In this document: positions 9,676 through 62,963 of the stretch, piece after piece
Numbering within the stretch: position 1 is the first letter of the stretch
Layout: each line of letters starts with the position of its first letter
Origin: Saccoglossus kowalevskii
Taxonomy: Eukaryota; Hemichordata; Enteropneusta; Harrimaniidae
Reading direction: 5' to 3'
Length of the DNA stretch: 64,000 bases
Assembly: GCF_000003605.2 (NCBI RefSeq)
Contig: NW_003155245.1
Coordinates: 162,472-226,471, forward strand
Translations under genes and position numbers: made by a program
The notes under the pieces: model-generated
Told to the model about the DNA's origin: nothing
Databases searched by the model: none
What the model saw: the letters and a program-made list of their open reading frames with translations, nothing else

Positions 9676-9696
9676 TGCACACATTCTGATATTAAT

Positions 9697-33979: not shown

Positions 33980-34119
33980 TCAGAGCATGTCATGTCTGCT
34001 GTATTCTGGAATTCCCGGAAGCTCAGAAATAAAATGAGTGATCTTGCCGTTCACTGTTCTTTCATTCTTCACAAAGGTGGACCAGTTAGAGAATTTCGCA
34101 CATAAAAAAATCTTGGATC
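33980..34119 (-). CDS. Gene A exon 5 (C-terminus, stop TGA)
   Basis: 140 bp, same as gene B. It encodes SKIFLCAKFSNWSTFVKNER, a hydrophilic stretch and ELPGIPEYSRHDML, then TGA. The family usually has Gly-rich G-G-S/N before the Ser; here the segment reads LCAKFSNWS, so gene A has Lys where B has Gly. No clear polyadenylation signal was seen close downstream. Confidence 0.82.
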
Positions 34120-37100
34120 CTCAAAAACGAAAATAAAAAAAAAAAAATAATAATTGATCATGGTTAAAACATTCAAAGCAAATAAAATAGAAATTGGACT
34201 GACGCGATTGTAACTAGTAACTTATGCGGATTATAAGTTGCAATTGGTTGCTCCGCGGTTACATGAGGTTATGAAGTTACCTCGACCAAAATTATTTAAA
34301 AAAAATACAACAAACAAAATATTATATTAACTGTTGCTAACACTGTTGACATCGGTACAAGCTGATAGACATGGGCTCTTTTTGATGACGCATCTCATCC
34401 CACAGCCTCGCCCTAAGGGAACCGGATCTTAAGGTGTTGCAACCCTTGCAACCATTCAGCTGTTGTGCTGTCCAATAACCTCTGGTAAATCGAAAATTCG
34501 GTAAGAGTGACCCACAGTACATCGACAGACATAAAACCGCGACTCAAATAAGGTTGGTTGATATGGGAATCGTGAATTAACCTGTTAATACTCATTGCAA
34601 ATTATCTATCAATTGGTCAAATTTTAACTACTTGCACAAGTCTAATCATGTTGTCATGGAAACGTGTGTTTCAATACTTACTGTAACACATCTCCTGTTC
34701 CAGCAATGAGACGGAGTAGGCATCACGGAGTATGCGTTCGTTTGTATCATCTCGCGGGAAGTCGCTCGACACGAAAATCCGATCACGTGGTAAGTGCTTT
34801 TCTAGGTGGTCGAGTATCTCCTAATACAAAAAATAAACACAGACAACTGTTCATTATTCATGTCACGTGGCTGTGTATATCACATGATTCATACATTTTT
34901 CATCATAACTATATAGCGCTTGAAAATTAACATCGTGGGATCCTGTCTCGGGTGGAGGGGGTGTCCTGGCGAACGACCAAAATATAATTAGAGAATTGAT
35001 AACTTATAAATAAATAAAAAATTGTATTGCGTGACGTGGGTTTCAATTTTTCATTTGCCTTTGAAGGCTCAAATTCCTGTTCTGACGTTATTTGCACATG
35101 TTTGCGCAAAAGACAAGATCAATTATTTTGTAATTTATCTGACGTATTCTAGACGCCATGTAAATCGTCATTGGTCAACAAGGAAGACCTGTTCTACATG
35201 ATCTCATCAGTGTAGTGATAATTTGTTGATTTCTGCCATGTTTGTTAGATTATCAGTGTCCACTGATTAAATGGACTATCGCATGCGGTAAAGAATCACA
35301 TAATATAAATTTTAACGGTGCATGCACTCAAATCGAGATATTATGACAGCAAAACGCATTATCGGACCAACAGGTAATGAATGTGCTGTTTTCTAGTCGC
35401 TCGATCTAGCAATTCCCCCGATGGCCTTAGTTGCCAACGTATAAACACAAGCGCCACCACACATGAGGTACTTGCCGTTGGAATAACATTTTTTTTTTCT
35501 AATCCGCTCTAGTCTTTTTCATATTTACGTACTAACGAGTCTGAGCCATGCCTGTTTTATTTGCCCATTTTTCATCCGGGTTTCAAAATGGCGGTGCTCC
35601 TCTTCACATCGTAAGGTTATGAGATTTTTTTAAATTTTCATGTTAATTTTTATTATAATTATAAATTTCATCCTCGTTCACCACACATTCTTACCATAGA
35701 TAATTGAATAATATAAAATGTAGCTAATTTTGAAGTGCGTTATAGCTATGGACGATATATTATCTATAGAATAAGTGCATCTGTGCACTGATTTTGCTGA
35801 GATTAATGAGATACTTAGAGTTATGGCTGTCAGTGTGTGATGGTAAATTATCCGCATCCACACATCTGTGCACTGTGGTTTTACTGAAAGTTTATCTGAT
35901 GTACTCAGATAAAATGTGCATATTATATTCCAAAATCGACAACGATCGTTCATTTGCATTTGTTAAGATTTGTTGTCCATGATTCAATATGACGTCATAT
36001 TGCTAAAACTACCATCTCCTACAAGTAGCAACAAGGACTTTTTGAAAGAGATAATGCTAAATATATGGCATTAAAATATCATAGAAGTATACTGTATTAT
36101 TATTCATCTGCCATCGTAACGCCATAAGTTACAGCGTGTCATACTTTTGCGGTATTTTACGGGGTAGTTTCATCCTACCATGTTAGGAAATGCGAATTCC
36201 AAATATGGAATGTTTACGCGCGTAAGCGTCCTCTAATAATAAAAACAAACATGGCTGCCACCAGAGTTTTACCGGACTCCACATAAAGAAGTTCGCTGAT
36301 TCTGTTCTAAATCATTCTGATCTTAAACATTTTGGATTTCGGCATTCCCATGGTGTATTCTTAGAAGGAAAAGATGTATAATAATAAGATTATAACCTCG
36401 ACCGACGCGCACTCCAGCTGTATTGTCTTCGTGCATACTTTGAGGTATCCTCGTAATAACCTCGTATTATTAAATTGTCTCAGGCTGTTTGAATGAATTA
36501 TTTCTGTGCATTGGGTTTACATGAAGTACATAAGCATGCAATGAGAATAGCAGTAAATTGTTGTTGAATGAGGTATTTTCTGTGCACTGTTTTACCTGTT
36601 GTAAGTTTGTTTGATATATCGTATTGGGATAAATCAAACAAATGGGGAATAAGTGAATATAACAATAATTAAAATATGGAAAATCAAATATATACTTACA
36701 TCGGATTTTAATCAGATTGTTTATAAGGAAGCATACTTATTTGCAAACTTAATTAAACATATCTCAAAATCAGCTTAGCATGACATAAAGTTAGAAATAA
36801 AATCAATTTAGAAATTGTTCATGCCAAATTTGCCATATGCCACAGTTGTATTGCAATGAATAACAAATTCATACAAGATTTTTTGCTACAGAATGAGTAG
36901 TGAGTTACTACAAAATGCACAACCGTTATTACAATATGTGTTGTTATTACATTATGCGTCATTATTACAGTTTGCATGCATCACATTTTCAATTTCATCT
37001 CAAACAATCCTTCCTATCGTTCAACCCGACACGTTGACTTACCAGCGACCACTGAGGGCAAGCTACGAACAAACATGTTAGATTATTTTGCTTCATGATT

Positions 37101-40100
37101 TCGGCCACGGCCACACTCACGCTCTCGGCAAGAGAGGTCATTTCTTTTCTGAACTTCTTACAGCGGATAGGACCTTTTCCAAAATAGCATCTGCAATAAA
37201 TAAAAGCGTCCACCTTAAACCAACGTGGTGACAGTGTGACACTAATCATAATGAGAACCTCACGAATTATCATAGGGAACACCACGTGACAGTAACATTT
37301 TTCTAAGGGTGTGATTGTTGTCACTTACGGCGTCTCACTTGTCTTGTTCCTCCAATGCATGGCCAAGTATGGCGCGTCGTCGCACATTTTCTTCTCAAAA
37401 TCGCCAGCAAGATCCCGTATCGCGCGTGGCCTGGTGACGTGTTTCCGTATCCGATTAGCAACTTCCTCTTCCCCTTCAACCAATAAGCCAAGTGCGCGCG
37501 GTTGATACAGTGCAAGGCATTGTGTGTGCGATACAGTTTCTTCCACTTGCCGTATGGTGGCGGGCTGCAACTGGACTAGCTCCTGGGGACTTGGAAGATC
37601 AATTCCTAATATGTCTTTGAATGTGTGTACACTTGTACTCTGATAATACGCGGGACCCCAAGAAATCACCTTTGTGTTATTCCCGTTACAAGCCGCCTTG
37701 AATCGGTCGATTGTCACCAGGGGCAATATATTTCCAAGGATTTGAACGTCAAATGTATCGTTTAGCGCCCTCAGATGGTTCTCAGCATATCCGCGTGTTA
37801 CACCCCCGTGTAGAAAAAATGGCGTCATCACTAACGTACGATTGGCCAATAAAGCAAACATGATTGCTTTCATGAAAGTGAGAAATTGACTATTCTGTCC
37901 TCCATTTCCCCGTCTCTGTAAAGCCAATAAATACTTAATACGTGGCGGCTCCAATGTGCTTTCATGTTCAGCCAAGGCTGGAACGCTTGGCAGATCGTTT
38001 TCATGCTGATTCTGACCCAGTTGTTCAATCGACTTAAAGAAATAACAAAACTATTATCAGCATTATAGGACAGTAAAATTATAGTATGCAAAAGGTGTTG
38101 ATGGAAGTTTAGAGTATTTCACTACCAAATCAAAGGATGTCCCTCCGTTACTAATATATCCAAGTACACAATTGACTCTGAAAACGGCGTGTTGGATACA
38201 TTATGTTCACTATGATAATATATCTAATATGTGCTAGTTCTTTCTCAGTGAGTTGAGTTTTATTTTTGGGAAATTCACTTTCCTTTTAAGTCCTTAATAA
38301 TAATGAACCTTCCACCTTAACACCTTACAATAAAGCATCCTGTAAGTAGCGCCACCTAGTGTCGATGAGCTTCTATTACGTAAAGGAGTGACACGAACGC
38401 TGTTCAAAGGGTCAATGTCATTTTAACCTGTCTATCAACGAATATCATGTTCTTGAAAGATTTTACTAAATTCTATATGACAAAGGACTACACAGCCAAA
38501 CACAGTTGTCAATTTGAACGACAGTGTTAAACGAAACAACAATTCCATGTTGCCCGTAACTCGAAGTTCGGTTAACTGGTAATTAAAGTTAAAGTTATTA
38601 AATGTGGACGTTCAACAACAAAAATTAGATAGCCCGTAACTCGAACTGTTAAATGAACATCGAGTTTACAATTTGGGCATGGATTTGCAAAAGTGGGCGT
38701 GGTTTCTAAAAAAAATATGGGCGTGGTCATTTTTGGAACTCGAACAATTCAGCATCTCAATAAATATTTACTATTCAATTTTAAAACTAAATAAATGCAC
38801 ACGAATGACCATATTACAATACAGTCGACATATTCCACAATTGTTCTCAGTACGATTTAATCATACTCATTAATTGAAAGGGCCCCCATCATGATGGGTT
38901 GTATACACGTATTTGAAGCTGTATTACTTTGGCCAGAAACTGAATTGTAGATAATGGTAAAACGACGTCAGCTTTTGCACGCTTTGCACATTCATAAAAT
39001 AAAATAAAATAAAATTGTATAGCGAAATTTAATCAAATATTAGCAGCTGGTGATTTTTACAGTCATATGTACATTAGACTCTTTTCATACATGCCGTGAA
39101 CTCAAATTATTCATAGGTTTTTAATTTCGCTATTCGATGATAAGTGAAACTCGCGAAATTAAATCCATACAAATATTTGAAATTATAACAACAACAAATT
39201 ATTTATTTCACAGCAAAATCCATAAATTTAAACCAAGTGAAAATGACCAGATTTCAAAACATTTAAGTGATTGTTCGAGTAACATTTAAATGAAAACAAT
39301 CAAGCGAGGTTAATATACAATTTAAATAAAAAAATTCAACTGCGTATTCAACACGTTCGTCGGTGTTCGAGTAATCTGGCGTGTAACAACATGGTTTCGA
39401 TGGTCTGTTTATTTTACTCCCTAGAACCAATGCAATTAGTCATGGAACGACGAGATGTTGCGTGTGGATCCCTTTTCAGTAAACATGGAACGGATGTCAC
39501 GGGGTGATATCGATGCCATTGGTATACAATGCAATGCTACGAGGATTAGGCTATATGTAAATTAAGAACCGTTATTTATTCGTTGCTTTAATCATATACA
39601 CGTACTCTTATCGCTTTAAGGTTCCCGAATTACGCATTAGGGGATCATCCCTATACAATTTAGAATCATTTACATGTTTTTCTTTTATTATCTCAATATG
39701 TATTTTAGTTTTCACAATAAATCCCGACTTATACTCAATATTGTTATCACGCATTTCTATTTGACAACTGCTCGCCAGTGAGATATTTATTTATTTTTAT
39801 TTTGAATTTCAGAAACCGTGGTCGCTTTATTAGCACAGACTTAATAGCATATGCAGATGTAATTGATAATAACCAATTAAAGATGTTTTGTGCTATATTA
39901 TTATTACACGAACCCATGTGGGTTATGTCATGAGCGGGTTTTCAGTTTCATGAAATATTGTAGTTAGAGTACGCCATCAGCGCCACCATTTTGGTGAGAC
40001 TCATTTGTGCAGTAATCAGTGAATATTGCCCCGTTACGACTGTATGTCAGGTTAATGGAACCCTGGGGAAATGCTGCATTTATTTGTCGACATTTTATGT

Positions 40101-40489
40101 ATCGTAAGAACCACAGTCCAACTGCAAACGGTGCCATCGTGACGTCATTCCGTGACAACCATTTTATGTTTACTGAAATGAAATTTACACGCAACAACTT
40201 GTTGTTTTATAACACTTTGGTGACGTGTCCTGACATAATTTCACGCGCACCAGGGTACCGTAAATATCACTGTAACATATCGCCTTAAAATAGTCATGCT
40301 AAAAACAAATAGAAGACAACTTACCTCTGCACCGACCCCTTTTGTTGGAACATTGGACAAACTAGAAGATGTATTTTTTATGAAATCTAATTCTGTTATA
40401 TCTTCTTTCTGAGCACTAAACCGTCTTTTAGTAACAATAAATGTACAGACTAAACAGGCGAGACACAATTGCATACGACGGCGCATCAT
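33980..40489 (-). CDS. Gene A: POFUT1-like O-fucosyltransferase family protein, type II membrane form (5 exons)
   Basis: The spliced product is 431 aa. Exons are 40325-40489, 37329-38032, 37043-37190, 34682-34820 and 33980-34119; all introns are GT-AG with phases 0, 2, 0, 1. Residues 1-5 are a basic cytoplasmic tail (MMRRR), and about 6-20 form a short hydrophobic anchor. The donor-loop motif GGQNSQF lies at about 99-105, followed by NRTLVMTPFFLHGG and, at 281-284, HWRN. The last exon carries SNWSTFVKNER, which matches the SSFTAFVKRER end of POFUT1. From family knowledge, these GT-B enzymes transfer fucose from GDP-fucose to Ser/Thr of secreted proteins, and the Arg of the H-x-R motif contacts the donor. 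The sequence shows no C-terminal ER-retrieval signal, unlike POFUT1. An in-frame TGA seven codons upstream supports the start. Paralogues B and C lie on the same strand upstream. Family assignment is fairly strong; substrate and activity are unknown. Confidence 0.82.
34682..34820 (-). CDS. Gene A exon 4
   Basis: 139 bp. Acceptor TTTGTATTAG|GAG, donor ACA|GTAAGT (phase 1). It encodes EILDHLEKHLPRDRIF at the start and DAYSVSLLEQEMCY at the end. Its length is identical to exon 4 of B and C, and the EQE(I/M)C ending is shared. No single open frame of notable length marks it, so it is found by homology and splice sites. Confidence 0.85.
36112..36470 (+). mobile_element. Dispersed repeat family 2, copy in gene A intron 3
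   Basis: About 360 bp that recurs inverted at 59189-59532. Shared landmarks: CGTAACGCCATAAGTTACAG, GGAAATGCGAATTC, ACGCGCGTAAGCGTCCTCTA, CATACTTTGAGGTATCCTCG. Noncoding. Confidence 0.85.
37043..37190 (-). CDS. Gene A exon 3
   Basis: 148 bp. Acceptor TTTATTGCAG|A, donor CTG|GTAAGT (phase 0). It encodes PCYFGKG, then MTSLAESVSVAVAEIM and NNLTCLFVACPQWSL. Its paralogues are at 53882-54029 and 61863-62013. The strand-helix-strand pattern with Cys fits the C-terminal Rossmann half of the transferase. Confidence 0.88.
37329..38032 (-). CDS. Gene A exon 2 (N-terminal GT-B half and HWRN)
   Basis: 704 bp. Acceptor TTTCTTTAAG|TCG, donor CC|GTAAGT (phase 2). The exon encodes a linker, GGQNSQF, NRTLVMTPFFLHGG, a DTFDVQIL segment, LPLVTIDRF, a Cys in QCLALYQPR, and AMHWRNKT near the end. 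It aligns throughout with the matching exons of genes B and C. The long open frame stops exactly at the intron. Confidence 0.9.
40325..40489 (-). CDS. Gene A exon 1 (start, signal anchor)
   Basis: 55 codons beginning MMRRRMQLCLACLVC, a basic tail then a short hydrophobic segment, followed by a Ser/Thr-rich stem. The donor reads GAG|GTAAGT, phase 0. The hydrophobic run is short (about 14 residues), so a cleaved signal peptide is an alternative to an anchor. Confidence 0.75.
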
Positions 40490-40507
40490 ATGAATTGTCC
40501 AATAGAG

Positions 40508-40750
40508 TCAGTCGATCTGTTTCCCGACATCGTACACATTTAAAGTGATGTTCATCATGCCAGGTCGAATGACGGCGATTCCTCGGCCTAGAACACTACC
40601 ATTCGTGGTATCGTGACAGTCTAAATGGATAGTTTGGTCACGAAGTATCTCAGAATAGACATTAACAAAAGCTGAATCTCTACCGATTGCAGTAGAATCA
40701 TTCAGCAGAACAATACGGGACGAGTGTGTATAACTAACAAAGTACACGTA
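40508..40750 (-). CDS. Candidate exon with ILEI/FAM3-like sequence, just upstream of gene A
   Basis: A minus-strand open block with coding character. After a possible acceptor (ACGACAG|TAC) it reads YVYFVSYTHSSRIVLLNDST, SAFVNVYSEILRDQTIHL and GRGIAVIRPGMMNITLNVYD, ending in TGA at 40508-40510. The G-R-G followed by hydrophobic strands and a V-Y-D-x-G resembles the ILEI domain of FAM3, POMGNT1 and CEMIP-type proteins. It is in frame with gene A exon 1 but separated by the TGA and six codons. It could be the last exon of another gene, a relic, or a chance frame. No other exon of it was found. Confidence 0.35.
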   Translation of the reverse strand, partial: YVYFVSYTHSSRIVLLNDSTAIGRDSAFVNVYSEILRDQTIHLDCHDTTNGSVLGRGIAVIRPGMMNITLNVYDVGKQID

Positions 40751-40799
40751 CTGTCGTATTTTCATCAGCATACCAGCCAACACATATGATGCGTACAAT

Positions 40800-43080: not shown

Positions 43081-43515
43081 TTAGGCCAGACTATTATTAT
43101 CCCTTGTTTCGCGAACCCGCCGAATGAACAGGAGCCGAAAATGAAATAAAAATATAATTTTATTTCAGCGTAATTTCTCGCGCCCGCCGACTTGTAAGTG
43201 CAAAAAAATGCTAAAAAATATTAATTTTATCTTCATTTTTTTCCACTCACCGCATAATAAATCCAAGTTGCATTTTCATGGGACTATCATGATCAAACTA
43301 CTGAAGTCTCGCGCAGATGAGAAACAAGGTTATACATGGAATAAAATGTTATTTCATTTCTTCTCTCCGATCAATGATCTCACTTACAATTCTTTGAGAA
43401 TCACACAAATCTAATGAAAAAAAATAATTAATTTTACTTTTTTTTCCCGCCCTCCTCAAAAAAAATTGCGTTATAAAAACTCGCAAAACAAGGAATAAAA
43501 AATAGTCTGGCCTTA
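43081..43515. mobile_element. MITE with about 35-bp terminal inverted repeats
   Basis: TTAGGCCAGACTATTATTAT at the left matches the complement of ATAAAAAATAGTCTGGCCTTA at the right, continuing into CCCTTGTTTCGCG/CGCAAAACAAGG. About 435 bp, AT-rich with GCCCGCC patches near both ends. Confidence 0.82.
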
Positions 43516-43700
43516 TACGAACGAAGTCCGTTATTACCTCCATGTAAATTAGCAATAAAACATTAAACATTCCTACAATTCATGCTCGGGGACTCATTTA
43601 AATATGTAAAAGCGCTTTTTGTACGAGAAAAACCTGAACTATTGATAAAGGAATAAAAGAAACAAAACTAGATAGTGCTGTGCTTAGTAAAATTACAGGC

Positions 43701-43773
43701 TGCCCCGTGTGAGGATCGAACTCACGACCTTCAGATTATGAGACTGACGCGCTGCCTACTGCGCTAACGAGGC
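43701..43773 (-). tRNA. tRNA-Met (CAT), elongator, copy 1
   Basis: 73 bases read on the minus strand from GCCTCGTTAGC to CACGGGGCA. It has a complete cloverleaf with seven-base acceptor pairing (one T-G wobble), anticodon CAT at 43738-43740, the TTCGATCC T-loop and discriminator A. The A at position 1 of an initiator tRNA is absent, so it is the elongator. A minus-strand TTTT lies about 10 bases past the 3' end. The A and B boxes are intact. Confidence 0.96.
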
Positions 43774-44455
43774 GCTGGTCTACATCGCGAAACAATGGTA
43801 TTTGGTATCTCAGCTTTGACACGTAATAGTTTAAATTGTTTAAGTTTATCTTACCGAATTGGTCATATTTCTATGATTGTTAAAGACGTGTGGTCGCGCT
43901 GTATGTGCGGCCAGTATCATATCTGCCACTGTTAAATCAACATGATCACTGCATACAGCTATGGATCCTCTAGCTTACTAGCGTGACCTTTGTTCACGTA
44001 CCTGTTCTGATAACATCGCTATTACCGGTTGTATTAATCCAGTCCCACCCACATGATCCACTTATTAAACAAGAGTTTTGCACTGACATGTTGTTTTTTT
44101 TTTTTGATAGTTTAGTGACACGTGACATGTGGATGTGTACCAGCATGCATTGTAATTGCTAGATATGTTTTTAGTCTGTGAAGTGTAAATGACGCCAACC
44201 AGACGGCGGGTAACTTTTGATTTCGTGTTTGCGTTGCTTTGGTTTCAAGGGTAACTTATTTCATTATATCTAGAAATATTATTCGGACTGAAACGTCAGT
44301 TGTATGATGGTATTATCCTAACAGTTGTTGACTTCAAAAAAAGTTCTCAATTTAAATCAGTAGATCTGAATCGTCGCTTTCATTTACTCCATGGGAAGGA
44401 ATGAAAGTCGAACAAAACTAATTATTAGTTTGGTGAATACACTAAATTACAAGTC

Positions 44456-44528
44456 TGCCTCGTGTGAGGATCGAACTCACGACCTTCAGATTATGAGACT
44501 GACGCGCTGCCTACTGCGCTAACGAGGC
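44456..44528 (-). tRNA. tRNA-Met (CAT), elongator, copy 2
   Basis: Same tRNA, 755 bp from copy 1 and in the same orientation. It differs by one base in the 3' acceptor arm (CGAGGC against CGGGGC), which turns the T-G wobble into T-A. Anticodon CAT at 44493-44495. No T-run follows within about 20 bases of the 3' end, so termination may be less efficient than in copy 1. Confidence 0.96.
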
Positions 44529-44916: not shown

Positions 44917-44938
44917 TGCGTATCTTAAGCAGTGAGAT

Positions 44939-45944: not shown

Positions 45945-48467
45945 ATATTGTAATTGACTCAAATAGTCTATTCTTTTAGTGGATCATTAACAATTTTTAA
46001 ATACACGTCTTTTACATTATTCAAAGATGGCCGGAATAACCATAATACTAACACGATACCAGTGGTAGAGTAAAACATGGGGGTACAAGTCTTTTACCTC
46101 CATGAGTAAACAAAGTAAAGTTTCTGGTGTCTGATTTTTGTTTGTTTTGTTTTTGTTTCAAATAAAAGGAAGAATTATTAAAATTCACTATAATAGAGAT
46201 ACATCGCGGTTACGATGATTAAGCTGTGTTGCACATTTTAACACTCCAAACTCGGCACGGTTTTGTGTCAAATGTGTAAAAACGAAGTCATTGACTGCTA
46301 GAGGGCGCAGTCCCAGATTCACGATAGTAAAATACATGTATGCTGAAAATGATGTAGTTATGTCGCCGTAATATACTGCCAATGGACATATTTGTACGTT
46401 CCGGGAGTCAGCGGGCGAAATAGGTGTTAGAAAATAGTATTGCTATGTTTTGGTCAGCTTGGTTTTCAGCCGTTCCGTTCTGGTGGAAATTGAGACGCCG
46501 GCTCATGGCCCAGTGCTTTTAAAATGAGGGTAATATTACGTAGTAGTTACGCCGGAACTAATACGCTCCATCAAAAGGACGAATAAATCATTTACTCAAT
46601 TTGTTCTTTACCCATAAGCCCTTGCTAGAGAATTACGATTGTGCACTACATAATACTGGTGAAATATTGAATATCTAGAGAATGAAAAGGGATATATTTA
46701 TAAAAAACAACTTTTAATTTTAGTAGAGCCCTTTCACATGTTGTTTTCTTAGACTTTTCCTTTAAACTCCACCATTTTTAAATGGATATAAACGAACGAT
46801 GTAAACACGGTAACGGCAACTCACAGAAACAGTATCAAGTTCATTTTCGACATATTCAAACCAAACCCTTGAACACTGGCAAATCATGCAAATATTAGTA
46901 CTTTTCTGTACAACAGTTGCCATTACAAGCGTTGTGTTTCTGTTTGGATAATTGCTAACAGTGTTGCCATCGAGCGGAGAAGAGTCTGTACTACATGTTC
47001 AATCTAGAGGCTTCGCCGGGAGTTGAAAAGACCCCCCCCCCCCACGCCAGAGCTGCTGGCGATCGCTCTATATCCAACAATCTAATGTAAGATAGTGTTT
47101 TGTTTTTTTATTTATTTTCCAATTTGTTCACGTATACATATTTCTTTGATGGTAAACAGCCTGAGATATTTTTTTTATCACGCACATTGCGTTATCGTTT
47201 AACCAAACTTGCTCGATTTTTTAATGATTACATAAAAGTGCGATTATAATATATATATAATGCCTCATTTATTACGTTAGTTATAATTCTATATTTAGAT
47301 ATGTATTCTTTAAACGTGAAAACATATACACGTGAGCGACTTCTCCAACATTATAACAAGTTATACGAAACGCTTCCTGATTTTCATAAACAATTGGAAA
47401 ACTTGCTAAAATTAGCACTTGAGAAATAAAGACAATAGACAGCAGTGATAATGTGTCATTGTCATATGGGTACTATGTGACGATAGATTGCAATACTAAT
47501 ACAGACACGTGACAAATCCGTATTGAATACTCGCAAACCATTTCTATATGCAGCGCCCTCTAGTGATGTCATTTTCGGTGTCGACATTATCTGTGGTGGT
47601 TCGCCTATAGAATGAGTGTCTTAAAAGATTTACCATATTCTAAATGACAAACACTGTCAAATATACTTATTTCTTTGAGCGGTATTGCTTCCATCTATCG
47701 TTTCCATGGAAACGCGTCAGAGCATACACCATTGTGTTGTTGAATACAGGTTTGTAGTGGGAATTCAACCAAGGTATACTTAATGGTGAATCGACGGCCG
47801 AATAAATGAATCTTGGCTGGCGAAGGTGATGATTTTTACTGTGCCGTCTAGGGTAACTAACACTTGTCGGTCTTTGAAGGTCGACACATCTAAATATTGT
47901 CACGTAATATTATATTCATCACATGGTAAAATTGAAACACGGTGAATTATAAACCCAATTCAAAGACTGAGTCAATGCTCTCCACCAGCACGTACATCAT
48001 CATGATGTACTATAATAAAATGTGAGTGCAGCTTTTCGAAAGAACAAACCAACAAATGGACTGCATTAGTGATACATTTAATACAATGATGCATAGTTAT
48101 ATTGTCATACCGGATGGACACCGCAAAAATGAGCATCAATGAGGAAACACAAAGAGGTCGTCAGATAGCATATTTTTATTTTATTTGCGACTATTATTTC
48201 CGTATGAAATTTATATCGCAAGCATTCGGCAACAGCAGGTTGTTAGTCCTTGAGAGAGATTAAGTATTGTAGTAAAACGCACGCACGAATGATCATGTGT
48301 ATTACTCTGGGATATATTTGGGACTAAATCTATATATAATATGGTGTACCGGGCGAAAACGTCCCCGTCTTTACGTGTGTGGTTTGATTATGGTATATAC
48401 GTATTAATATTGTGCTGCGGCCTTATGGTAGTTGTATGTGACATCCTGTTCGCGAAACCATAAAAAC
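45945..48467. other. Intergenic sequence
   Basis: No gene recognised. Two CTAGAGGGCGC/GCGCCCTCTAG words (46300 and 47552) and a run of C at about 47033-47043 are the only notable features. Confidence 0.55.
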
Positions 48468-49373
48468 ATGAGTTTCAAGGAAGGTATACGTACTTCCAAG
48501 ACACCAGATCTTGAATTTTGTGAAGAATGCGAGTTAAAATGCTTCACCGCCGCTCTTGAACACGTGAGCTCCCAAACGAACGCGTACGTCCCACGTACCG
48601 AATCAGGTACTGAATGGTCGATCGCGTTCGAATCAACGATGTCATCCCTCGAGTCACTCAGAATGGCGATCAGTAACACACCTGCAGCGGAGAATATGTT
48701 TGAAGACATCTATCTATCAATGAAATACATTCGCAATGTGCTGGAGGGAAACACGAAACGCACGGCAGAAATCAAACAGGAGAAGGAAATCCTTGCTAGT
48801 CAGCTGAAGACAACTAACACACAGTTAGCTGAAACGGAAAAGGAGCTCCAACAACTGGAACAGTTCACAAGGAGAAATCATTTGGAAATTCACGGCGTTC
48901 CACAACCGTATTTCACTGAAAATACTGACGATGTGGTTGTGGAACTAGTAAGTGCGGTCGGTATCAATATCTCGACTTGTGATATCGATATAAGTTATCG
49001 TTTATCCCCAGCAGGAACCCGGCAACCCCAACAACAACAACAACTCCCGCAACCAATCATTGTGAAATTCGTTACACAGTCTCTCCGCGATGAAATATAC
49101 AATTCTCGGAAGGAGATACAAACCAAGTCAGCAGAAAAATCAACAGCGCTTAACGGGGCAAGGGAGAGAGTTCACATCGAAGAAAACCTGACTGTCGCCA
49201 ACAAGAAGTTGTTTCACAAAGCAAACAAAATAAGAAAATTGTGCAACTGGAAGTTCATTTGGACTTTAAACGGGCGAATATTTGTCAGAAAAAATGTTGG
49301 AGAAAATGCTATCAGTATAGATTCTCTGACCGACATCGACCGCATTTGGCCGCCAAACTGTCACAGCTGCTAA
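48468..49373 (+). CDS. LINE ORF1-like protein (coiled coil, RRM-like and C-terminal domains), intact
   Basis: 301 aa from the ATG at 48468 to TAA; the open frame extends 36 bases upstream without another ATG. A coiled coil at about residues 100-135 (IKQEKEILASQLKTTNTQL, ETEKELQQLEQ) leads into FTRRNHLEIHGVPQ, the usual junction to the RRM-like fold of L1/CR1-type ORF1 proteins. Then come VELVSAVGI, ISYRLSP, a short poly-Q, IIVKFVTQSLRDE and the C-terminal NWKFIWTLNGRIFVRKNV. Such proteins bind LINE RNA and form trimers. No reverse transcriptase follows in the next 3 kb, so this is a truncated element, a nonautonomous derivative or possibly a host-kept gene. It has no frame damage, unlike the LINE at 7.4-10.6 kb. 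Confidence 0.82.
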   Translation: MSFKEGIRTSKTPDLEFCEECELKCFTAALEHVSSQTNAYVPRTESGTEWSIAFESTMSSLESLRMAISNTPAAENMFEDIYLSMKYIRNVLEGNTKRTAEIKQEKEILASQLKTTNTQLAETEKELQQLEQFTRRNHLEIHGVPQPYFTENTDDVVVELVSAVGINISTCDIDISYRLSPAGTRQPQQQQQLPQPIIVKFVTQSLRDEIYNSRKEIQTKSAEKSTALNGARERVHIEENLTVANKKLFHKANKIRKLCNWKFIWTLNGRIFVRKNVGENAISIDSLTDIDRIWPPNCHSC

Positions 49374-52757: not shown

Positions 52758-52897
52758 TCATAGAAGATTTAGTGTTCTGTAATTTGGAATTCCAGGTAGC
52801 TCTTTTATATTAAACGTAATTTTGCCTTCTAGATCTCTCTCCTTTGTCACAAAGTTTGACCAGTTGGAGAATCCCGCAGCTAGAAATACGCGAGAAC
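52758..52897 (-). CDS. Gene B exon 5 (C-terminus, stop TGA)
   Basis: 140 bp. Acceptor GATGTCTGTAG|GT. It encodes SRVFLAAGFSNWSNFVTKER, then ELPGIPNYRTLNLL and TGA. This segment is the strongest link to POFUT1-type enzymes. Confidence 0.88.
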
Positions 52898-55800
52898 CTA
52901 CAGACATCAAGAAAAATAAGTATATTACATTACATTACATTATGTTTTTTAAATTACTTATTCTTTTTGTATACACGTATATATTGCATAGTCATAAATG
53001 AGTATTCGAAAAAAAAAATAATTCTGGTTAATTTCACTGATTGGTGATTACCGATGCTGGAATTAATAAGTTTCGAGTTTCGAACAACTAAATATAGTCA
53101 ATAACTCGGGCTTACATAATTTTGAAACGTTGTACTATTGATTGGTAAGGACCGAGTCACTTTATCCTGAACTATTGCATTGTAAGTGTGGGTATGTGAG
53201 CTTCTGTCAGAAATGCAAGATTTGGTTTCGAATGTACAAACGGAGTAGTTATTAGAGACTGTATTACTGTATACAGTGTTGAGCTCGTAACTTACGGTAA
53301 CATATCTCCTGTTCTATCAATGACGCGGCGTAGTAGTCGTCCAACAATTTCCTATTATCAGCATTTACTGGGAGTCTTTTTAAATGGTATATTTGCTCTT
53401 TCGGTATAAATTTGGATAACTCGTCAAGAATACTCTACGAGAAAGGAAAGAGTGTAGTATTCAGCTAATGAAGTACAAATATTACATGTTTAGTGTGTAA
53501 TGTTTATGTTTCCAATTGTATATGTGAAATAGATATGGTTATTGCATAGTTAGACTCGACCATACCTTCCTTAAAATTACCTGTGTTATTTGTGTTGATA
53601 TCTGGCTTATGCATGTACTGTAAAATACTTTATGAAATTAATTGTCGCTGATATTTGATGAGTTGAATGTAATTTATAGGAAAAAAAGGTATGTTCACTG
53701 GATTATATTTTCACCGAAGAAAATTCCTTCATCGAAAATAGTGGAAATTAATTCAAAGTGAAAATAAAGTATTTTACAGTATGTGTGTGCAAGATTCTAC
53801 GAATAACGCGATATCCCGTCATGACGTCGTCCATGCAAGAATGAATGTATATAAAGTGAGCAATTGTTTCCTGCTGCTTACCGTAGACCACTCAGGACAA
53901 GCCACGTACAAACAGGATAGATTGTTCTTCTTCTGAAGATCAGCAACGGCTTTGGTGATGTTTCCAATCATTCTGGAAAGCTCGAATTTTGCCATTGTAC
54001 ACTGAAGACGATTGTAGTCGAATATACAACTTTACGAAAAACATTTAAATTGTTAGTTTTTTTAAAAATATTTTTCACTATAAATTTAATTTTTTTCTGC
54101 TTATAAAATTAAAGGCGATATTCAGCTTTCCAATAAACAGTGCCCTCTGGCGAGATATCATCACTATAACATAGAAAGCGACAATTTGTTTCCACAAATA
54201 TATTTGTTCGGGCGACTGTGAATGTCATAATTACATCTCTTCCTTTTTTATGCGCAAATTTAAAGTACAAGTAACGGGGTTAATGACAATTTAACAAAAG
54301 ACATTATTATATACCCTTTACTTCAAAAGGAAAGTCACAAGAGGGCGCATTTCATGAGAAAGGTGTGTTAAAAAACAAAGAATAGCAATTGACAAGGAAA
54401 ATACAGACACAGACACGATGCAATGACTAAATCAAATCAAATCAAATCAAATCGCTAGCATATGAGTAAATCAGGTTACAAAGAATTCAACGCAATACGT
54501 CGGATGATGCTCGATTGTATCCATGAGTAATGCAATACGTCTATTTACATACTTACGGATCTTCAGTAGATTTGTTCCTCCAGTGAACTGCAAGGTACGG
54601 CTTCCCGTCACAAAAGTTTGCTAACAACTGATCAGTAACGTCTCGCACAACTTTATTCCTCTTCAGGTACGACCGAACTTTATTGAGTATAAGATGTCTA
54701 TTGTTTATTTGGAGCTTCGATTTGCGTGGTTCGTACATAGCAAGACAAGGCGCATGGTTGACCAGTTCCTCCACTTGGCTCGTCGTATTTGCTTGCGATA
54801 GCAGCTTTACATTCTCATGATGGGGCAAGTCCACTCCTAACAAAGATTTAAAAGTCCGTTCATTGGTTTTATCGTAATCGGTTAGATCCCAAGTCACCAC
54901 TTTAATTGATTCTTTCTTGCAATTTCTCTTGAACTCATCAACGGTTCCCAATGGCAACAGCTCTCGAAGAATATCCACATCGAATGTGTTGTTGAAGTTA
55001 CGCATGTGTTCCTTGGTGTATCCGCGCACGTGGCCTCCGTGGAGAAAAAACGGTGTCATCACCAATGTCCGATTGGACAGTAACGCCAAGTTGATTACCT
55101 CCACAAAGTTATTGAATTGGCTGTTCTGACCTCCAAATCCATGCCTTTGAATTGACATGACGAATCTTGTGGCGTTGCGCGAGGAATGCGCCAAGTTACT
55201 ATTGGGCGTTCCCTTGGCAGTCGATGATACTTGTATCGAGGTTTGCTGATCCATATTCGACTTGACACTTGTTATCAAAGGTGAGTTGGTAATGTTTAAT
55301 TGTGTTTTGAATGGCCGCTTTACTGTTGAAACGTGTGTTGAGTTCTTTGACAGTATAATGTAGGGCACAGCTATCTGTAAGATACAAGAGGTTCATGCAT
55401 TTGTGAATAATCGTGATAACAGTATATTCTACTGGTTATGCGCGTACGTGCTTTAAAAGGCGGTAGTCGTCGTACCACGCATGCGCGAGATATATGGGTC
55501 TCATACAAACAATAAAGATGGCGACTTTGACTGTTGCGCAGATCAACAAGTACAAACTGAGACGTTTCCAAGCTTTAATTAGGTACTTTTAGGTGATTGG
55601 AAGGTATCGAAGGAGTCACCGGCTGTAATCAGTGCAAGTCGCGCCCATGTCAAACATTATACTTGTGATTTCCATTTGACGAGCGCATTGGATTGTGGGA
55701 AAATCAATGTTTATCAGCACAAATGTCGCACATGCGCAGCGCGACGACCACCTGGAGCGCCGGTTTCTTCTCTTAATCGGAAAACAAAATTGTGTATCCG

Positions 55801-56938
55801 ACAGGTGGATTTTACTAGTCAATACTGTCAAATATTAAAATAATCTTACACTAAATAGTAAGGTCATCTTCGGTTATACTACGTCAAGTGTTACGTCAGA
55901 CGGAGATCATTTAAATATATTTACAAATTTTTTCATTGCTTATGTATATTATTGGGATTTCTTCTAAGCAGGCTCAATTTGAACTATTCATTTGATTTTT
56001 ATCAGTTTCAAAGAAAATTAATTGCACAAATCAGAAACTACGCAAAGAGGTTGTTTATGTTTCTTAGTACAACAGCAATATAGTATCATGTATTGTAACC
56101 ATGGATACCGCATCACACAACAACATTAGATAATTTAATACGGTAGATAAGTATGCGGAGAATACATCATTGGTCAACAATTCTATTGAATGTGAATAAT
56201 ACCGTGACTGCTGTTTGTCTTGTTTAGCTATCTCACTTACGATACAATGACTTACGAATCAGGGAAAGACATTTAAATTTATATTTTCTTATGGATTTTA
56301 AATTTAACCTCTATGCAGTAAGTACATCTTAACTGATATCGTAATTTACCATGAATATTCAAATTACTTTAATTTCTGAGACTACTTCAGTCAATATTTT
56401 GAGATTGTCAACCAGGGCGTCAAGAAATCGGATTATTGGGATTGTTATTAGATAATATTGATATGTCGCGAATCGTATGAAACTGCAAATATACAAGAAC
56501 TTATACACCACGAGTTGCTGTTACACATGCGAATCAGTATTTACAAAATTAAATGGCAATTGGTCGAGTTTTTTTTCCGTATGGGTCATTTCACGTTTAC
56601 CTAGAGTCATTACAATATTTCTCAGGAGATTTTTGATGCCCCGTAACCTGGTACAAAATCGGAACACGTGCACAAGACATTCCAGTCATTACATCCCCGA
56701 CTGTACGATAGGTTAATGACCTTGCTGTGTTACGCAAAATCTGTGAAAGGTGAACACTTACCGTGGTTGACATTCGACTCAACGTTGCTGCAGTTGTTTT
56801 GCCTGATTCACCATTGTCAGTGTCGTTGTCGCGGGACCATACCGCTGCTACTTTGTTCTCGTGTACCACATAGAGAATACACACTGTCAATATCGACAAG
56901 AAACAAAGCGCAGAGAAATAGAACCGCATCTGTTTCAT
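52758..56938 (-). CDS. Gene B: POFUT1-like O-fucosyltransferase family protein, type II membrane form (5 exons)
   Basis: The spliced product is 473 aa. Exons are 56762-56938, 54557-55374, 53882-54029, 53296-53434 and 52758-52897, with the same phases as gene A (0, 2, 0, 1). Residues 1-5 are MKQMR, and about 6-25 form a clear transmembrane anchor. A Ser/Thr/Asn-rich stem of roughly 100 residues, longer than in A, leads to GGQNSQF (140-146), NRTLVMTPFFLHGG and HWRN (323-326). The C-terminus has AAGFSNWSNFVTKERDLEG, very like the end of POFUT1 (SSFTAFVKRERDLQG). The expected role is fucose transfer from GDP-fucose to secretory-pathway proteins, in Golgi or ER. This is the best-preserved member, with all splice sites canonical and no frame damage. 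It has no KDEL-type tail. Substrate is unknown; a non-enzymatic fucose-binding role is possible. Confidence 0.86.
53296..53434 (-). CDS. Gene B exon 4
   Basis: 139 bp. Acceptor TTTCTCGTAG|AGT, donor TACC|GTAAGT (phase 1). It encodes SILDELSKFIPKEQIYHLKR to DDYYAASLIEQEICY, aligning residue for residue with gene C exon 4. Confidence 0.86.
53616..53781. mobile_element. MITE with perfect 18-bp terminal inverted repeats, in gene B intron 3
   Basis: TACTGTAAAATACTTTAT at 53616-53633 is the exact reverse complement of 53764-53781. The 166-bp element ends in TA and lies within the 447-bp intron between exons 3 and 4 of gene B, so it makes up over a third of that intron. The interior (TTCACTGG, GAAAATAG) resembles family 1. 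Confidence 0.88.
53882..54029 (-). CDS. Gene B exon 3
   Basis: 148 bp. Acceptor CGTAAAG|T, donor ACG|GTAAGC (phase 0). It encodes PCIFDYNRLQC, then MIGNITKAVADLQKKNN and LSCLYVACPEWST. The three-Cys pattern matches gene A. Confidence 0.86.
54429..54453. repeat. Microsatellite (AAATC)5
   Basis: Five perfect AAATC units in intron 2 of gene B's 3' flank side, just before exon 2 on the + strand map. Confidence 0.9.
54557..55374 (-). CDS. Gene B exon 2 (stem, donor loop, HWRN)
   Basis: 818 bp. Acceptor GTATCTTACAG|ATA, donor CC|GTAAGT (phase 2). It is 114 bp longer than in A and C because of a longer Ser/Thr/Asn-rich stem. It carries RHGFGGQNSQF, NRTLVMTPFFLHGG, NNTFDVDIL, PCLAMYEPR, FCDGKPYLAVHWRNKS. 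Confidence 0.92.
55453..55776. mobile_element. MITE with TTAA ends, copy 2, in gene B intron 1
   Basis: The left end TTAAAAGGCGGTAGTCGTCG is nearly identical to the copy at 24327. The right arm GCGCGACGACCACCTGG lies at 55733-55755, and TTAATCG follows at 55773, as it does at 24445. The interior is longer. Confidence 0.62.
56762..56938 (-). CDS. Gene B exon 1 (start, transmembrane anchor)
   Basis: 59 codons beginning MKQMRFYFSALCFLSILTVC. A run of about 20 hydrophobic residues after a basic tail gives type II topology. A hydrophilic Asp/Ser/Thr-rich stem follows. Donor ACG|GTAAGT, phase 0. Confidence 0.85.
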
Positions 56939-58264
56939 CTTAAAGAATATCTATACACGTTATCTATGTTCAAACTACAGCATTTCACTACTGAAAATCC
57001 AAATGCTTAACAGCTTAATACACATGGCGAGTTGACTGGGCAGCAGCTATTGGCCACAGCAGTCGAACCTTATGATTGCGCCGTCTGTTAACAACCGATT
57101 ATTAATGGTATGACCGAATATCATATAATGATCAAGCGAAACTGATTATACATATAATACACCATAATACTTTGGCACGAACGCTCAGATTTATCTTTAA
57201 TACTTTACCCACATGCACATTTTTTTTTACTTTCTCCTAACATGCTTGAGCAATACTTATATTCTAAATGACACAGGCGAAAAAATCTAATCTAAAGTGA
57301 TCGGCTCGTCTTCGGACATACAGTGCGTTTTGCTGAGCCAATCTGTGTGAGAAAGTGTTTATTGTATTTATTGATTTTACCAGTTCTCTTAGCTCATTAC
57401 ATACATAAAATGCAGTAGGCGAAAAGATTAAGAACACATTTCAAAACAAGCTACGGTTGTTTATTTTTAATATTTCTGTAAATGAATTATGGTGTACTGT
57501 CTACAATACGTAACATAGTAAAATTTTAGCATGGCTACGCCGTGTACAATACTCAACAAGCATAATCTCCATTTTAAAGGGAATGACAGGTATAATACCG
57601 TATTATTTCAAAGTATTAAGTGTAACATATGGCGGGGTCGACATTCATTTGTTGTTTGTGAACCATGCAAACTATCCCTGTATTGAGCTTAATATAGTAT
57701 GTGTATAAATACGATAAGCGCACAGACATTCACTGAAATTAAAATTAGATGTAAATATGCACATACAATGCATATGTTGATATGCAAGGGAACATATGGC
57801 TGAACATACCATTCGCCGTCTGATCACTGCAATATTCCTCTAATTATGCATAACACGTGACACAGCTTTATCCGGAAAACATGATTAGCTATTAGTTGCA
57901 AATATAGGCATGCACTGTACGCGTCACTTGGCCAGCTTCGAACGAGGGTACTCATTGATGACGTAATCGAACAAATTATCGCGCGTCCCATCACATGTCT
58001 AAAGTTAAATGCAAATGGCCACAAAAATCTCATTGAGAGCGATAGTGCCACGAGACATTAAATGTTCCCCAACTATTGTTCTGTTTTCTCCCGTCACCAG
58101 GCTCACTGTTCTAAATAAAATGCTTGCATATAACATGGCAACACTGGATGCAAAGGTGGGACTGAATGTAACACGGTTTGAAGTATCGTGGCACGCCCAC
58201 TCTCCACAAGATCTCCACTCTTTTGCGTCTTTAGTTTAATGAAAAGCATCCTGTCGGCTGAGAT

Positions 58265-58796
58265 AGCTCCGCTGTGAGCAATGCACTTTTCAATTAAAGA
58301 ACTGAAGATATCAGTAGAAAATGAACAATATGTATAGTATCAAAGCAATCGGACTTTTTTCAATAAGAATTCAAAAATATAACCTTTCACCAAAAATGAC
58401 AAAAATATTCATCGAAATTAGATAATTAAAGATATCACCACGAAATGAACAAATCTGAGAGAGGTCCACATATAGTACCTATATGNNNNNNNNNNNNNNN
58501 NNNNNNNNNNNNNNNNNNNNNNNNNNNNNNNNNNNTTAACAAGAAGTCGAAAATATCAATTTTTACTAACAAAATATAAAAATATTCACCAAAATTAAAA
58601 AAATTAAAGATATCATCATGAAATAAACAAATCTAGGAGAGGTCTACCCAAGGTACATATACACCAAGTATCAAAGCATTCAGGCTTGTAGTTTTCAAAA
58701 AGTAGTTGAAAAAGTGAAACATTGACACGGACGACGGACGCCAACGGACAATCACTCATATGATAAGCTCCGCTCGACAAAGTCGATAGCGGAGCT
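58265..58796. mobile_element. Repeat element with AGCTCCGCT ends and an internal duplication, interrupted by the gap
   Basis: AGCTCCGCT at 58265 is inverted at 58788-58796; a strong hairpin (58766-58796, AGCTCCGCT CGAC AAA GTCG AT AGCGGAGCT) closes the right end. The interior holds a diverged tandem unit (ATTAAAGATATCA, GAACAAATCT, GAGAGGTC), seen at 58424-58465 and 58605-58645. The GGACGACGGACGCCAACGG motif before the hairpin is typical of a repeat class common in marine invertebrates. Confidence 0.65.
58486..58535. other. Assembly gap (50 N)
   Basis: Exactly 50 N, probably a placeholder. It lies within a tandemly repeated element, which explains the failed join; the true length is unknown. 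Confidence 0.98.
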
Positions 58797-59188
58797 AAAA
58801 AAGAGAGAGAAATACAGAATATATAGTCAGTTGTAATGAAAAGTGACAATAATTCTCAATTACCGATATGACACTATTTTGTAAAAAAAAAAAAAATAAG
58901 GACGCCATGTACTCAATCTGATAATGTACGACCAGGTTCACTAAAATGGGATACACAACAAACACACAGTTTCATTCATGCATTAGTCTCTACTGAATAC
59001 AATAACATCATAAGGTTGATCGATGCAATTTCAAAGGACATCATCAAACTAGTTTCGAGAAAAACACGTTTATTTTATGAGGAAAAATATCTATAATGGA
59101 ATAGGCTTAACATTAAATATACAGATGTGTCACGAACATGCATTTTCAAAATAAATAAAATGTTCAGAACTTTGTTTGCTACACGTAA

Positions 59189-59532
59189 AGAATATGAGGT
59201 TATTACGAGGATACCTTAAAGTATGCACGAGGACAGTATAGTGGGAGTATCGACCAATGCGGCGGTGCAGTGTCTGCGGGCATACTTTGAGGTATCCTCG
59301 TAATAACCTTATTATTATACATCTTTTTCAGGATACATCATGAGAATGCCGAAATCCAAAAAGTTAAAAACGGAATCAACGAACTTCTTTGTGTTTTTAT
59401 TATTAGAGGACGCTTACGCGCGTAACCATTCCATATTTAGAATTCGCATTTCCTTACATGCTAGGATGAAAATACCCCGTAAATTACCGCGAAATTACGG
59501 CACGCTGTAACTTATGGCGTTACGGTGACATA
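59189..59532 (-). mobile_element. Dispersed repeat family 2, inverted copy just 3' of gene C
   Basis: Reverse-complement relative of 36112-36470. One end folds back on itself: AGGTTATTACGAGGATACC (59197-59215) and its complement at 59291-59309, which marks an end of the element. Confidence 0.85.
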
Positions 59533-59621
59533 TATATAATTCCTATGTCAAATGATATGAAATGTACACACGAAAATGTATCGATCAACATTTAAATTAT
59601 AGAATATTTGTGTGTATGTGT

Positions 59622-59767
59622 CTACATAAGTTTTAGTACAGTTTTGTTTTGGTCCGATATGCCCATGATTTGGTGAGTATAGTATGATTCCTTGTCATTT
59701 GCCAATCTTTCTTCAGCTACAAACTGCGACCAAAGTGACAATCCGGCACCTAAAAACACTTCAGAAC
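59622..59767 (-). CDS. Gene C exon 5 (C-terminus, stop TAG)
   Basis: 146 bp. Acceptor ACATTGCAG|GT. It encodes SEVFLGAGLSLWSQFVAEER, then IMGISDQNKTVLKLM and TAG. A minus-strand AATAAA at 59396-59401, inside a repeat, is a possible polyadenylation signal. Confidence 0.86.
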
Positions 59768-62700
59768 CTGCAATGTACAATGTACCATAACAAATGTACG
59801 TGTTTCTTGATATGGAACAATTTGAAAACACAACCGTTAGTATGTATATCCTTTGATGTAACGGACATTAAAACATTTTTAATTGTTACTTTGAAAACAA
59901 TCTGTCAGAATTATTTTGTAAAATGATAGACCAACATTACTACAGACATTATTATTAAAAATACAATTCGCAAAATGTTGAAACAAAATTCACTTGACTA
60001 TTTCTCGAGACTGTTTTTTTCTGTTTTTTTTTATGAGATTAGTTTTGTTTTAGTTATTTTTTTTTTGGTTATGTTTCTTACACATCTTCAAAACTCGCAT
60101 TAAATCTATACTTTATCATATGTGAATTTTTAGAATATATAACAAAAGGAATGTCGAAATGCAGGAGTATTTATTGTAACACTGATTTGTTAGACGTAGA
60201 TTCCTAGTTCGGTTTATCCTGAAACAGGAAACAACTCGGGGCATAGTACTAGTACATGTACAGCCATCTCCACCTGAATAAGAACATTTTCGATTTGCCA
60301 AACTACTCTGTGCAGATATGGAATAATTAGATTCATTATAACTTACGTGAACATATTTCCTGCTCCAATAATGAAAACAGATAGAAATCGTCTTTGATCT
60401 GGGACGCCCTCACATTTGAAGTGATATTATCAGCAGTGTAGATTTTCTTTCGGTCAATATTTCGACCCAAATGATCTATTATTTCCTGGAAGCAAATACA
60501 ATGTCGGTAAATGATGTTTTTTGCATCAATATCAATTGATTTGGTAATACTTATTCAGTATTCATTTTAATATTTAGTAACACGATTTTACATTGCACAT
60601 TTAATTAGAGGGCGCCAGTAAAATAAACACTGTCACCTCAAGAGGGTGTCTTTCAACTAGACATACACGATACTGAAAGCCATTACACTTTATGTGAAGC
60701 ACAATGCGCAGAGGAATTAACGTAATATGAGTATGACAATCGTATAAATGTGTGGCAAGCCGTGATACACCAATTCCATTTATGATCTTTATATATTTTT
60801 TTATATTATTTGGTATCCAACTTGTCACTAGTGGAGTCATATGGTAATGTATTGTAGCTAATCGATCCAGTAGCTATGATTAGAGAATTGTATAGGTAGC
60901 ATTCGCTATTTAGTAAATAAGTTTATACACTATCGTTCATTTTATTTAGGAGCAATATAAAAACCAATAGCCACAAATGGGTGCCGAGATCTCGTTGTAA
61001 ACGAATGAAGTAGTTACTTTCTTCTCTACTGTCGATCTCGACAACTATTCAACTGATCCAACAATCGTGATATTTGGAATGTGAGAATTGAACACTTATG
61101 TCGGAGAAAAAAAGTAACGTGGCTCTCCCATTCTCGGCGAGATCTCATCGGCCATTTACGCCTAAGGCCTTTTGCTATTTCAAAAAAAAAAAATGACAAA
61201 TCATTGTTTCAACCATACACAGCCCCTCAACACCCAGTTAGGAAACGCTCTGAGTTCTATTGTCACAATGTGTGTTTCGCGTTCGTAAAATTTACCGGCC
61301 GGTAATCATGATCCCCACACTGTCAACATTAACATAAAATTACATATAGTATGACATCATTTTCACCCATAATTCCTCGCGATTTCGGCGTACACGCAGG
61401 CGTACACAACTTTAGTTTGATGTTTCACTGCTGTTAAGTTTCAACTTCTGGGTATTTTATTTTAACGAAATTCGGGGAAAACACGAATATTTCAGCGTCA
61501 GTGATATTGATTGGGATGACATAATGCAAAAAGGACCTCGGTATTTAGATGCAGGATATATGCACAAAGAGGATGTGAACAAACCACAGACTACATCGTC
61601 ACCACCACCGTCGTCGTGTATGGCTTCAAGTTGACACCTGGCCACAAACGAGACTGGATTTTGAGGGACTGTGGACCATGTTTATTTGAATTCGAGGCAA
61701 TATAAATCTACCAGGCAGTCACGGCATACACATTGCGTCATCGCTCGCATAACAAAGACTATTCTAGTCGTACTAGCGAACGATGAAAAGTATTCCCAAA
61801 AAAAAATATCACTATTATTAGTCTACTTATATGAATAGATTATTACTTAAAAGAAAACTTACCTTGGACCAAGATGGATACGCCACATACATACACTGTA
61901 TGTTTCTTTGATCCATGAAACGCCGAATTGCGACACTGGCGTCTTTTGCTAACTCTGACATCACTGCCTGTAATTGCTGACAATAACTTTCTTGTTTCGA
62001 GCCGAAGACACAGCTGTGGTAAAGCAGAATAATGACCATGCCTGTCGCGACTAATGTAAATCGGTAACCTCACAAACACTTACATGAAAATGTGTCGGGG
62101 TTGGGGTGGTCACAAACTTGAACATGTTTCACATCTGATTATTGCTTGCTGAATTAGATTTTTAAAATAAGATACCCAAACGTGACCAAATCGAAAAATT
62201 GTCTAGCGTCGAGCTCGGAAATACTCGAGTGACATGGATTATACAAACTTTAAACTTACGGTTTTTCTGCGGATCGGTTCCTCCAATGAAGTGCTAAATA
62301 CGGCTCACCGTCGCAAATGTACTCGCTCAATTCATCAGCCAAGGCTAAAACATTCGGCGTCCTCACAAGATGGAGGTCTACATCTCGCGACAACTTAGCC
62401 TCGTTTTCAAATTCTATGTTAATCACTCGAGGGTTATAAAACGCAGCACATGGTGATTGGTCGAAGACATTTACTTCCTCTGAAGTGGTGCGAGTTGGAT
62501 CCACCACTTCCGCCGCTGGTGGGAGATTTATCCCATAATATTCCCCGAATCTTGTTTTCCTTGTTTCCTCGTAATGTCCTGGCGGGCCAATATCCCAGGT
62601 CACAACTTTTGTTTCGCCATGATTGCATACTTCTTTAAACTTATCGAGCGTTGCCACGGGCAACAATTTATCCAATCGTTTTGCGTTGAATGTCTCGTTG

Positions 62701-62963
62701 AAGTCTCTCATATTGTCCAAGTTGTATTGCCCAGTAACATAGCCACCATGTAAGAAGAAAGGTGTCAAAACAACTGCCCTCTTTGTTTCATATGCTAATT
62801 TTATGGCGTTTTTGAATGCGTTGTATTGACAATTAGATCCACCCATGGATCTCTTGAATATCGGTAGCAGATAGCGAGCGGAAGATGAATCCGCTGTCGA
62901 TTTGAACTTTAGCGGTTTCAAGTCACCGTTTCCAAGTTTTCTCTGTAGTGACTGCAAGAACTC
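59622..62963 (-). CDS. Gene C: POFUT1-like O-fucosyltransferase family protein, 5' exon outside window (4 exons seen)
   Basis: Visible exons are 62260-62963, 61863-62013, 60347-60485 and 59622-59767, giving about 379 aa; acceptor phases (0, 2, 0, 1) show that one upstream coding exon is missing. In genes A and B that exon carries the anchor, and it lies 1.4-2.3 kb upstream, so here it should fall beyond position 64000. The donor loop reads MGGSNCQYN rather than GGQNSQF, and VVLTPFFLHGG and LALHWRNRS are kept. The end reads FLGAGLSLWSQFVAEER. C is the most diverged of the three paralogues, with a one-codon-longer exon 3 and a two-codon-longer exon 5. Role as for gene B by family; the altered donor loop might mean altered donor or acceptor use (inference). 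Confidence 0.82.
60347..60485 (-). CDS. Gene C exon 4
   Basis: 139 bp. Acceptor TTGCTTCCAG|GAA, donor TCAC|GTAAGT (phase 1). It encodes EIIDHLGRNIDRKKIYTADN to DDFYLFSLLEQEICS. Confidence 0.85.
61863..62013 (-). CDS. Gene C exon 3
   Basis: 151 bp. Acceptor TTTACCACAG|C, donor AAG|GTAAGT (phase 0). It encodes PCVFGSKQESYCQQLQAVM and RNIQCMYVAYPSWSK. The second Cys of ACP in A and B is Tyr here (AYP). Confidence 0.86.
62260..62963 (-). CDS. Gene C exon 2
   Basis: 704 bp, the same length as gene A exon 2. Acceptor AATACCACAG|GAG, donor CC|GTAAGT (phase 2). It carries KRSMGGSNCQYNAFKNAIKL, VVLTPFFLHGG, DFNETFNAKRL, PVATLDKFKEVC, SPCAAFYNPR and YICDGEPYLALHWRNRS. Confidence 0.9.

Follow-up and report, generated by a model that had tools for sequence, protein, structure and literature searches.

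POFUT1 and POFUT2 are few-copy enzymes of Notch and thrombospondin-repeat (TSR) biology; in POFUT2 the catalytic Glu lies in an N-terminal loop (E54 in the human enzyme). Both are O-fucosyltransferase (O-FucT) enzymes, and plants have large O-FUT/GT106 families with a GG-x-N-type loop that fall within the same Pfam family, PF10250 (DUF246). The GT106 rhamnosyltransferases, which use another nucleotide sugar, also belong to this wider superfamily. A window of 64,000 nucleotides from the acorn worm Saccoglossus kowalevskii, the whole stretch analysed here, contains three genes, A, B and C, which an earlier note on its sequence had read as a tandem trio of membrane-anchored, POFUT1-like fucosyltransferases. 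They belong to a PF10250 family that is greatly amplified in this genome. Lineage-specific copies of another fucosyltransferase type (FUT3/FUT4/FUT7) are reported from a sea cucumber (PMC10213396), and two fut8 paralogues from Saccoglossus (PMC4204859). No title or abstract was found to describe a large animal PF10250 family, in a search that ran mostly outside subscription papers and so does not show absence in print.

Gene models were built by joining exons at GT/AG sites within the 64-kb window, and all three genes are encoded on the minus strand. Gene B has five exons (56938 to 52758; 473 amino acids), as does gene C (40489 to 33980; 431 amino acids). Gene A has exons 2 to 5 inside the window (62963 to 59622; 379 amino acids), and its exon 1 and start codon, which contribute 59 amino acids, lie beyond the window edge at window-equivalent 64494-64318. 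Both numbers of the span in the earlier note, 33980..62963, coincide exactly with exon borders. The exons within the window are as follows.

62260..62963, minus strand: gene A exon 2, from the GGSNCQ loop to HWRN (splice model; PF10250 for spliced A, 9.5e-13)
61863..62013, minus strand: gene A exon 3 (GT/AG borders; phase 2 in, 0 out)
60347..60485, minus strand: gene A exon 4 (splice model; phase 0 in, 1 out)
59622..59767, minus strand: gene A exon 5 and stop, SLWSQFVAEER (splice model)
56762..56938, minus strand: gene B exon 1, start codon and N-terminal hydrophobic anchor (splice model; hydropathy)
54557..55374, minus strand: gene B exon 2, stem, GGQNSQ loop, PFFLHGG and HWRN (splice model; PF10250; structure model)
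53882..54029, minus strand: gene B exon 3 (splice model)
53296..53434, minus strand: gene B exon 4 (splice model)
52758..52897, minus strand: gene B exon 5 and stop, SNWSNFVTKERD (splice model)
40325..40489, minus strand: gene C exon 1, start codon and weak N-terminal anchor (splice model; hydropathy)
37329..38032, minus strand: gene C exon 2, GGQNSQ loop, PFFLHGG and HWRN (splice model; PF10250)
37043..37190, minus strand: gene C exon 3 (splice model)
34682..34820, minus strand: gene C exon 4 (splice model)
33980..34119, minus strand: gene C exon 5 and stop, SNWSTFVKNER (splice model)

The three genes are indeed same-strand paralogues with identical intron phases, as had been claimed: the phases are 0, 2, 0 and 1 in each (the first phase of A being read outside the window). 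The claim of near-identical exon lengths holds for exon 3 (151, 148 and 148 nucleotides in A, B and C), exon 4 (139 in each) and exon 5 (146, 140 and 140), and for exon 2 of A and C (704 each); it fails for exon 2 of B, which at 818 nucleotides encodes a longer stem. The motifs noted earlier, GGxNxQ, PFFLHGG, HWRN and S-x-WS-x-FV-x-x-ER, do not vary among the three, and the last three residues are KLM in A, NLL in B and DML in C. Identity is 46.7% between B and C (345 positions) and 37.3% between A and the other two. Pairwise BLASTP gives E values of 4e-83 to 4e-123, a reversed window used as a control yields nothing below E 1.4, and a family hidden Markov model (HMM) run on 1262 window frames returns 13 matches at E<=1, every one of them an exon of A, B or C. 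At that threshold the model missed exon 1 of B and detected the other 13 of the 14 in-window exons. Thus, the likeness of A, B and C is not due to chance.

The trio is not the unit, since A, B and C are 3 of at least 102 loci in the genome, which also rules out a self-contained three-gene system. When A was searched against the window's own assembly (572 Mb, 4830 contigs), 109 stretches matched; seven of these rows were dropped, five because they were downstream exons and two because each was the second piece of a locus. The remaining loci, spread over 59 contigs, have the same large exon as A; 84 of the 102 match at E < 1e-11, and 65 have another family locus within 50 kb. Because 108 of 150 candidates were scored, this count is a lower bound on the number of similar places, and its weakest rows are fragments. 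B gave 108 stretches, its matches including three loci on contigs C2856 and C2455 (53%, 265-270 bits), C (45%, 213 bits) and A (37%, 160 bits); the PF10250 profile itself matched 37 times. Fifty of the 102 loci were read, A, B and C included, and the core is open from the start motif through HWR in 49 of them, L072 being partial and lacking the start of the exon. Exon borders are the same as in the trio at L047, L048 and L050, and a donor search restricted to phase 2 gave no clear exon 2/3 border at L046 and L049. L042 and L043 are full-length members without introns. At L053 (G000:C4225:424000-433000) the family exon lies within one 635-residue frame whose long N-terminal part is rich in LPEVN-like repeats and may represent an unusual stem.

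In the best tree, B clusters with the genes on C2856 and C2455 (support 97/82), C and two C3177 genes join that group (98/90), and A lies apart. The approximately unbiased (AU) test rejects neither an A+B+C clade (p 0.123) nor a B+C clade (p 0.206). The best tree thus splits the trio, yet a common local origin is compatible with the AU test. For a bacterial or viral origin, scans with a 3-row alignment produced 45 pattern matches in genome contigs and 92 in viral contigs, none of which was confirmed; each scan used two short patterns, which makes the test a weak one.

Profile searches place the family within the O-FucT superfamily. The spliced proteins score 48.9 (A), 60.5 (B) and 57.5 bits (C) against PF10250, all above the curated cut-off of 31.5, and at E<=0.1 the profile recognises 46 of 50 family members. 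Against the Protein Data Bank (PDB), a 50-row family profile matches Caenorhabditis elegans POFUT1 (2.1e-7) and, more weakly, POFUT2 (1e-3), and it aligns with the genome's own POFUT1 across 305 columns. Searches of the PDB with one sequence or three rows gave insignificant POFUT2 matches and otherwise chance matches. A structure model of gene B exon 2, of moderate confidence, shows the O-FucT fold in the N-terminal domain; by fold, POFUT1 and POFUT2 tie and FUT8/NodZ scores lower. The label "POFUT1-like" thus suits the profile comparison, while the fold does not favour POFUT1 over POFUT2.

Their proximity in fold and profile to POFUT1 and POFUT2 would suit extra paralogues of those enzymes that O-fucosylate epidermal growth factor (EGF) or TSR repeats in the endoplasmic reticulum (ER). 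Such a role seems improbable, however, as an ordinary POFUT1 (GRFGNQ, HLRNGADW and an HDEL end) already exists elsewhere in the genome, whereas the family has neither the POFUT1 motifs nor the end signal, and has instead an N-terminal anchor and a different intron plan. Descent as POFUT1 paralogues with the POFUT1 exon plan is ruled out: the POFUT1 gene has a phase 0 intron past HLRNGADW, near but not at the site of the family's phase 2 intron, and an intron before EVFHLD that has no family counterpart. The POFUT1 gene (L039, G000:C3896:708000-717000) also contains two versions of its GRFGNQ exon about 190 bases apart (reverse complement ~1755 and 1946), reading RFTNQVDQLLG... and RFGNQVDQFIG...; each is preceded by an AG acceptor, and they may be mutually exclusive exons. 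Further POFUT1-like exons occur at L040 (G000:C2358) and L041 (G000:C1), reading GRFGNQADHFLG... and GNCASSFSSFVKRERD, so POFUT1 itself seems to be present in more than one copy.

Conservation of individual residues was counted across 50 family rows. The HWRN Arg is present in 50/50, His and Trp in 47/50 each and Asn in 48/50; two Cys residues are invariant (50/50), and the Asn of GxNxQ is found in 47/49. The HWRN Arg aligns with HLR of POFUT1. A study of worm POFUT1 (PMC3180450) names Asn43, Arg240 and Trp245 alone as critical for activity and reports that R240A binds no GDP. The family pattern fits a guanosine diphosphate (GDP)-sugar transferase with a changed active site.

Anchors were judged by 19-residue hydropathy, whose N-terminal values are 2.6 for A, 2.3 for B, 2.2 for L042 and L043, and 1.4 for C. 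The earlier description of the trio as membrane-anchored thus applies to A and B, where the anchor is clear (in A it is visible outside the window only), and less well to C, where it is weak. None of the three has a KDEL-like end. This combination, set against the HDEL of the genome's own POFUT1, predicts that the enzymes reside in the Golgi and modify something other than EGF repeats.

Taken together, A, B and C probably belong to an amplified, diverged branch of Golgi-type, membrane-anchored GDP-sugar transferases, probably using GDP-fucose, that act on acceptors other than EGF repeats. Each protein would start with a short N-terminal tail and a hydrophobic anchor, followed by a stem and then by a catalytic domain in which cysteines are conserved, in a type II, Golgi-like layout. 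The HWRN Arg would grip the nucleotide of the GDP-sugar, as Arg240 of worm POFUT1 does, and the donor would most likely be GDP-fucose, because all the nearest solved relatives use it. Since the proteins have neither an ER-retrieval end nor a POFUT1 signature, they most likely act in the Golgi, where the acceptors may be glycans or mucin-like or matrix proteins rather than folded EGF repeats. The many copies could furnish a varied repertoire of transferase activities. A more tentative extension is that about 100 such enzymes, with a rebuilt active site, together decorate secreted or mucus glycoconjugates with a combinatorial layer of fucose or of some other sugar.

Several points weigh against this interpretation. 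Within the PDB profile matches, single stretches score weakly, and an HMM of family exon 2 detected no POFUT1 exon at E<=10. The structure model has a mean predicted local distance difference test (pLDDT) score of 69.4, with 52 of 209 residues below 50, and covers the N-terminal domain alone. The position of worm POFUT1 Trp245, five after Arg240, is Glu in 47/50 rows, four residues past the HWRN Asn, and the GGxNxQ Asn is one place off Asn43, although a gapped alignment could equate the two. With Trp245 replaced and the Asn shifted, activity of the family is not assured. Finally, the ratio of nonsynonymous to synonymous substitution (dN/dS) is 0.11-0.46 in 11 of the 15 close pairs (those with dS < 1.5; the remaining four had a dS that was either saturated or undefined), but the alignments had been trimmed of badly aligned stretches, which lowers dN.

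The two altered positions (2 of the 3 critical in worm POFUT1) also speak for another possibility, namely that the O-FucT fold was kept while the donor became a nucleotide sugar other than GDP-fucose, as in the plant GT106 enzymes, the family formed by the rhamnosyltransferases of rhamnogalacturonan I (RG-I). This appears rather unlikely, because the nearest solved structures, by profile and fold alike, are all GDP-fucose enzymes and the nucleotide-binding Arg is invariant.

Close family pairs appear from these ratios to evolve under constraint, which bears on whether much of the family could be decayed or an assembly artefact made of alleles and split genes, leaving a true repertoire far below 102. 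The draft state of the assembly (4830 contigs), the fragments among the weakest search rows and the missing exon start of L072 (one of 50 loci read) would fit such an artefact. It is nevertheless hard to credit, given the open core in 49/50 loci, the constraint and a divergence that in the tree is mostly far beyond that of alleles (the closest pair in the dN/dS set is 92% identical). If one animal has a branch of about 100 loci for anchored enzymes altered at two active-site positions, this kind of fucosylation would have been turned into a large, variable repertoire. The donor and acceptor of the family are directly testable, because B and C are compact (431-473 amino acids) and L042 and L043 offer intronless full-length frames.

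Elsewhere in the window, a Pfam search of seven other frames gave two matches, RVT_1 and Baculo_FP_2nd. The first is a reverse transcriptase fragment (9020-9733, plus strand; 6.5e-7) whose flanking frames resemble remnants of a non-long-terminal-repeat (non-LTR) element; the second (PF25298, 3.1e-12) lies in a 311-residue frame between B and C (48438-49370, plus strand), probably a retroelement open reading frame. Two tRNA-Met (CAT) genes lie about 750 bases apart on the minus strand (43701-43773 and 44456-44528). The stretch GTTATTACGAGGATACCTCAAAGTATGC, which resembles a short mobile-element end, is common to ~36460 and 59200-59310 on the minus strand, with two opposite orientations near the latter. 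A run of 50 N occupies 58486-58535, between A and B. Outside the window, the mitochondrial contig of the assembly (17,037 bp) carries a COX1 in which TGA is read as Trp, and ATA fits Ile best in comparison with other COX1 sequences.

The superfamily is thus a known one, and by sequence the family has its marks while failing the features of POFUT1 itself. POFUT1 (GT65) has a GRFGNQ loop where the family has GGxNxQ, Trp245 where the family has Glu, and a signal peptide in place of an N-terminal anchor; it is a soluble ER protein with an HDEL-type end, which A, B and C lack, and has another intron plan, whereas the family has about 100 loci. POFUT2 (GT68) is a weaker full-profile match than POFUT1 (1e-3) and has HWRRRDF in place of HWRN-x-x-x-E. 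The FUT8/NodZ alpha-1,6-fucosyltransferases (GT23) have a fold score below that of POFUT1/2, and neither SH3, a C-terminal feature of FUT8, nor any other extra domain was found in A, B or C (Pfam, E<=1). In overall layout, A and B, and more weakly C, resemble the type II Golgi glycosyltransferases, with a short N-terminal tail followed by a hydrophobic anchor.
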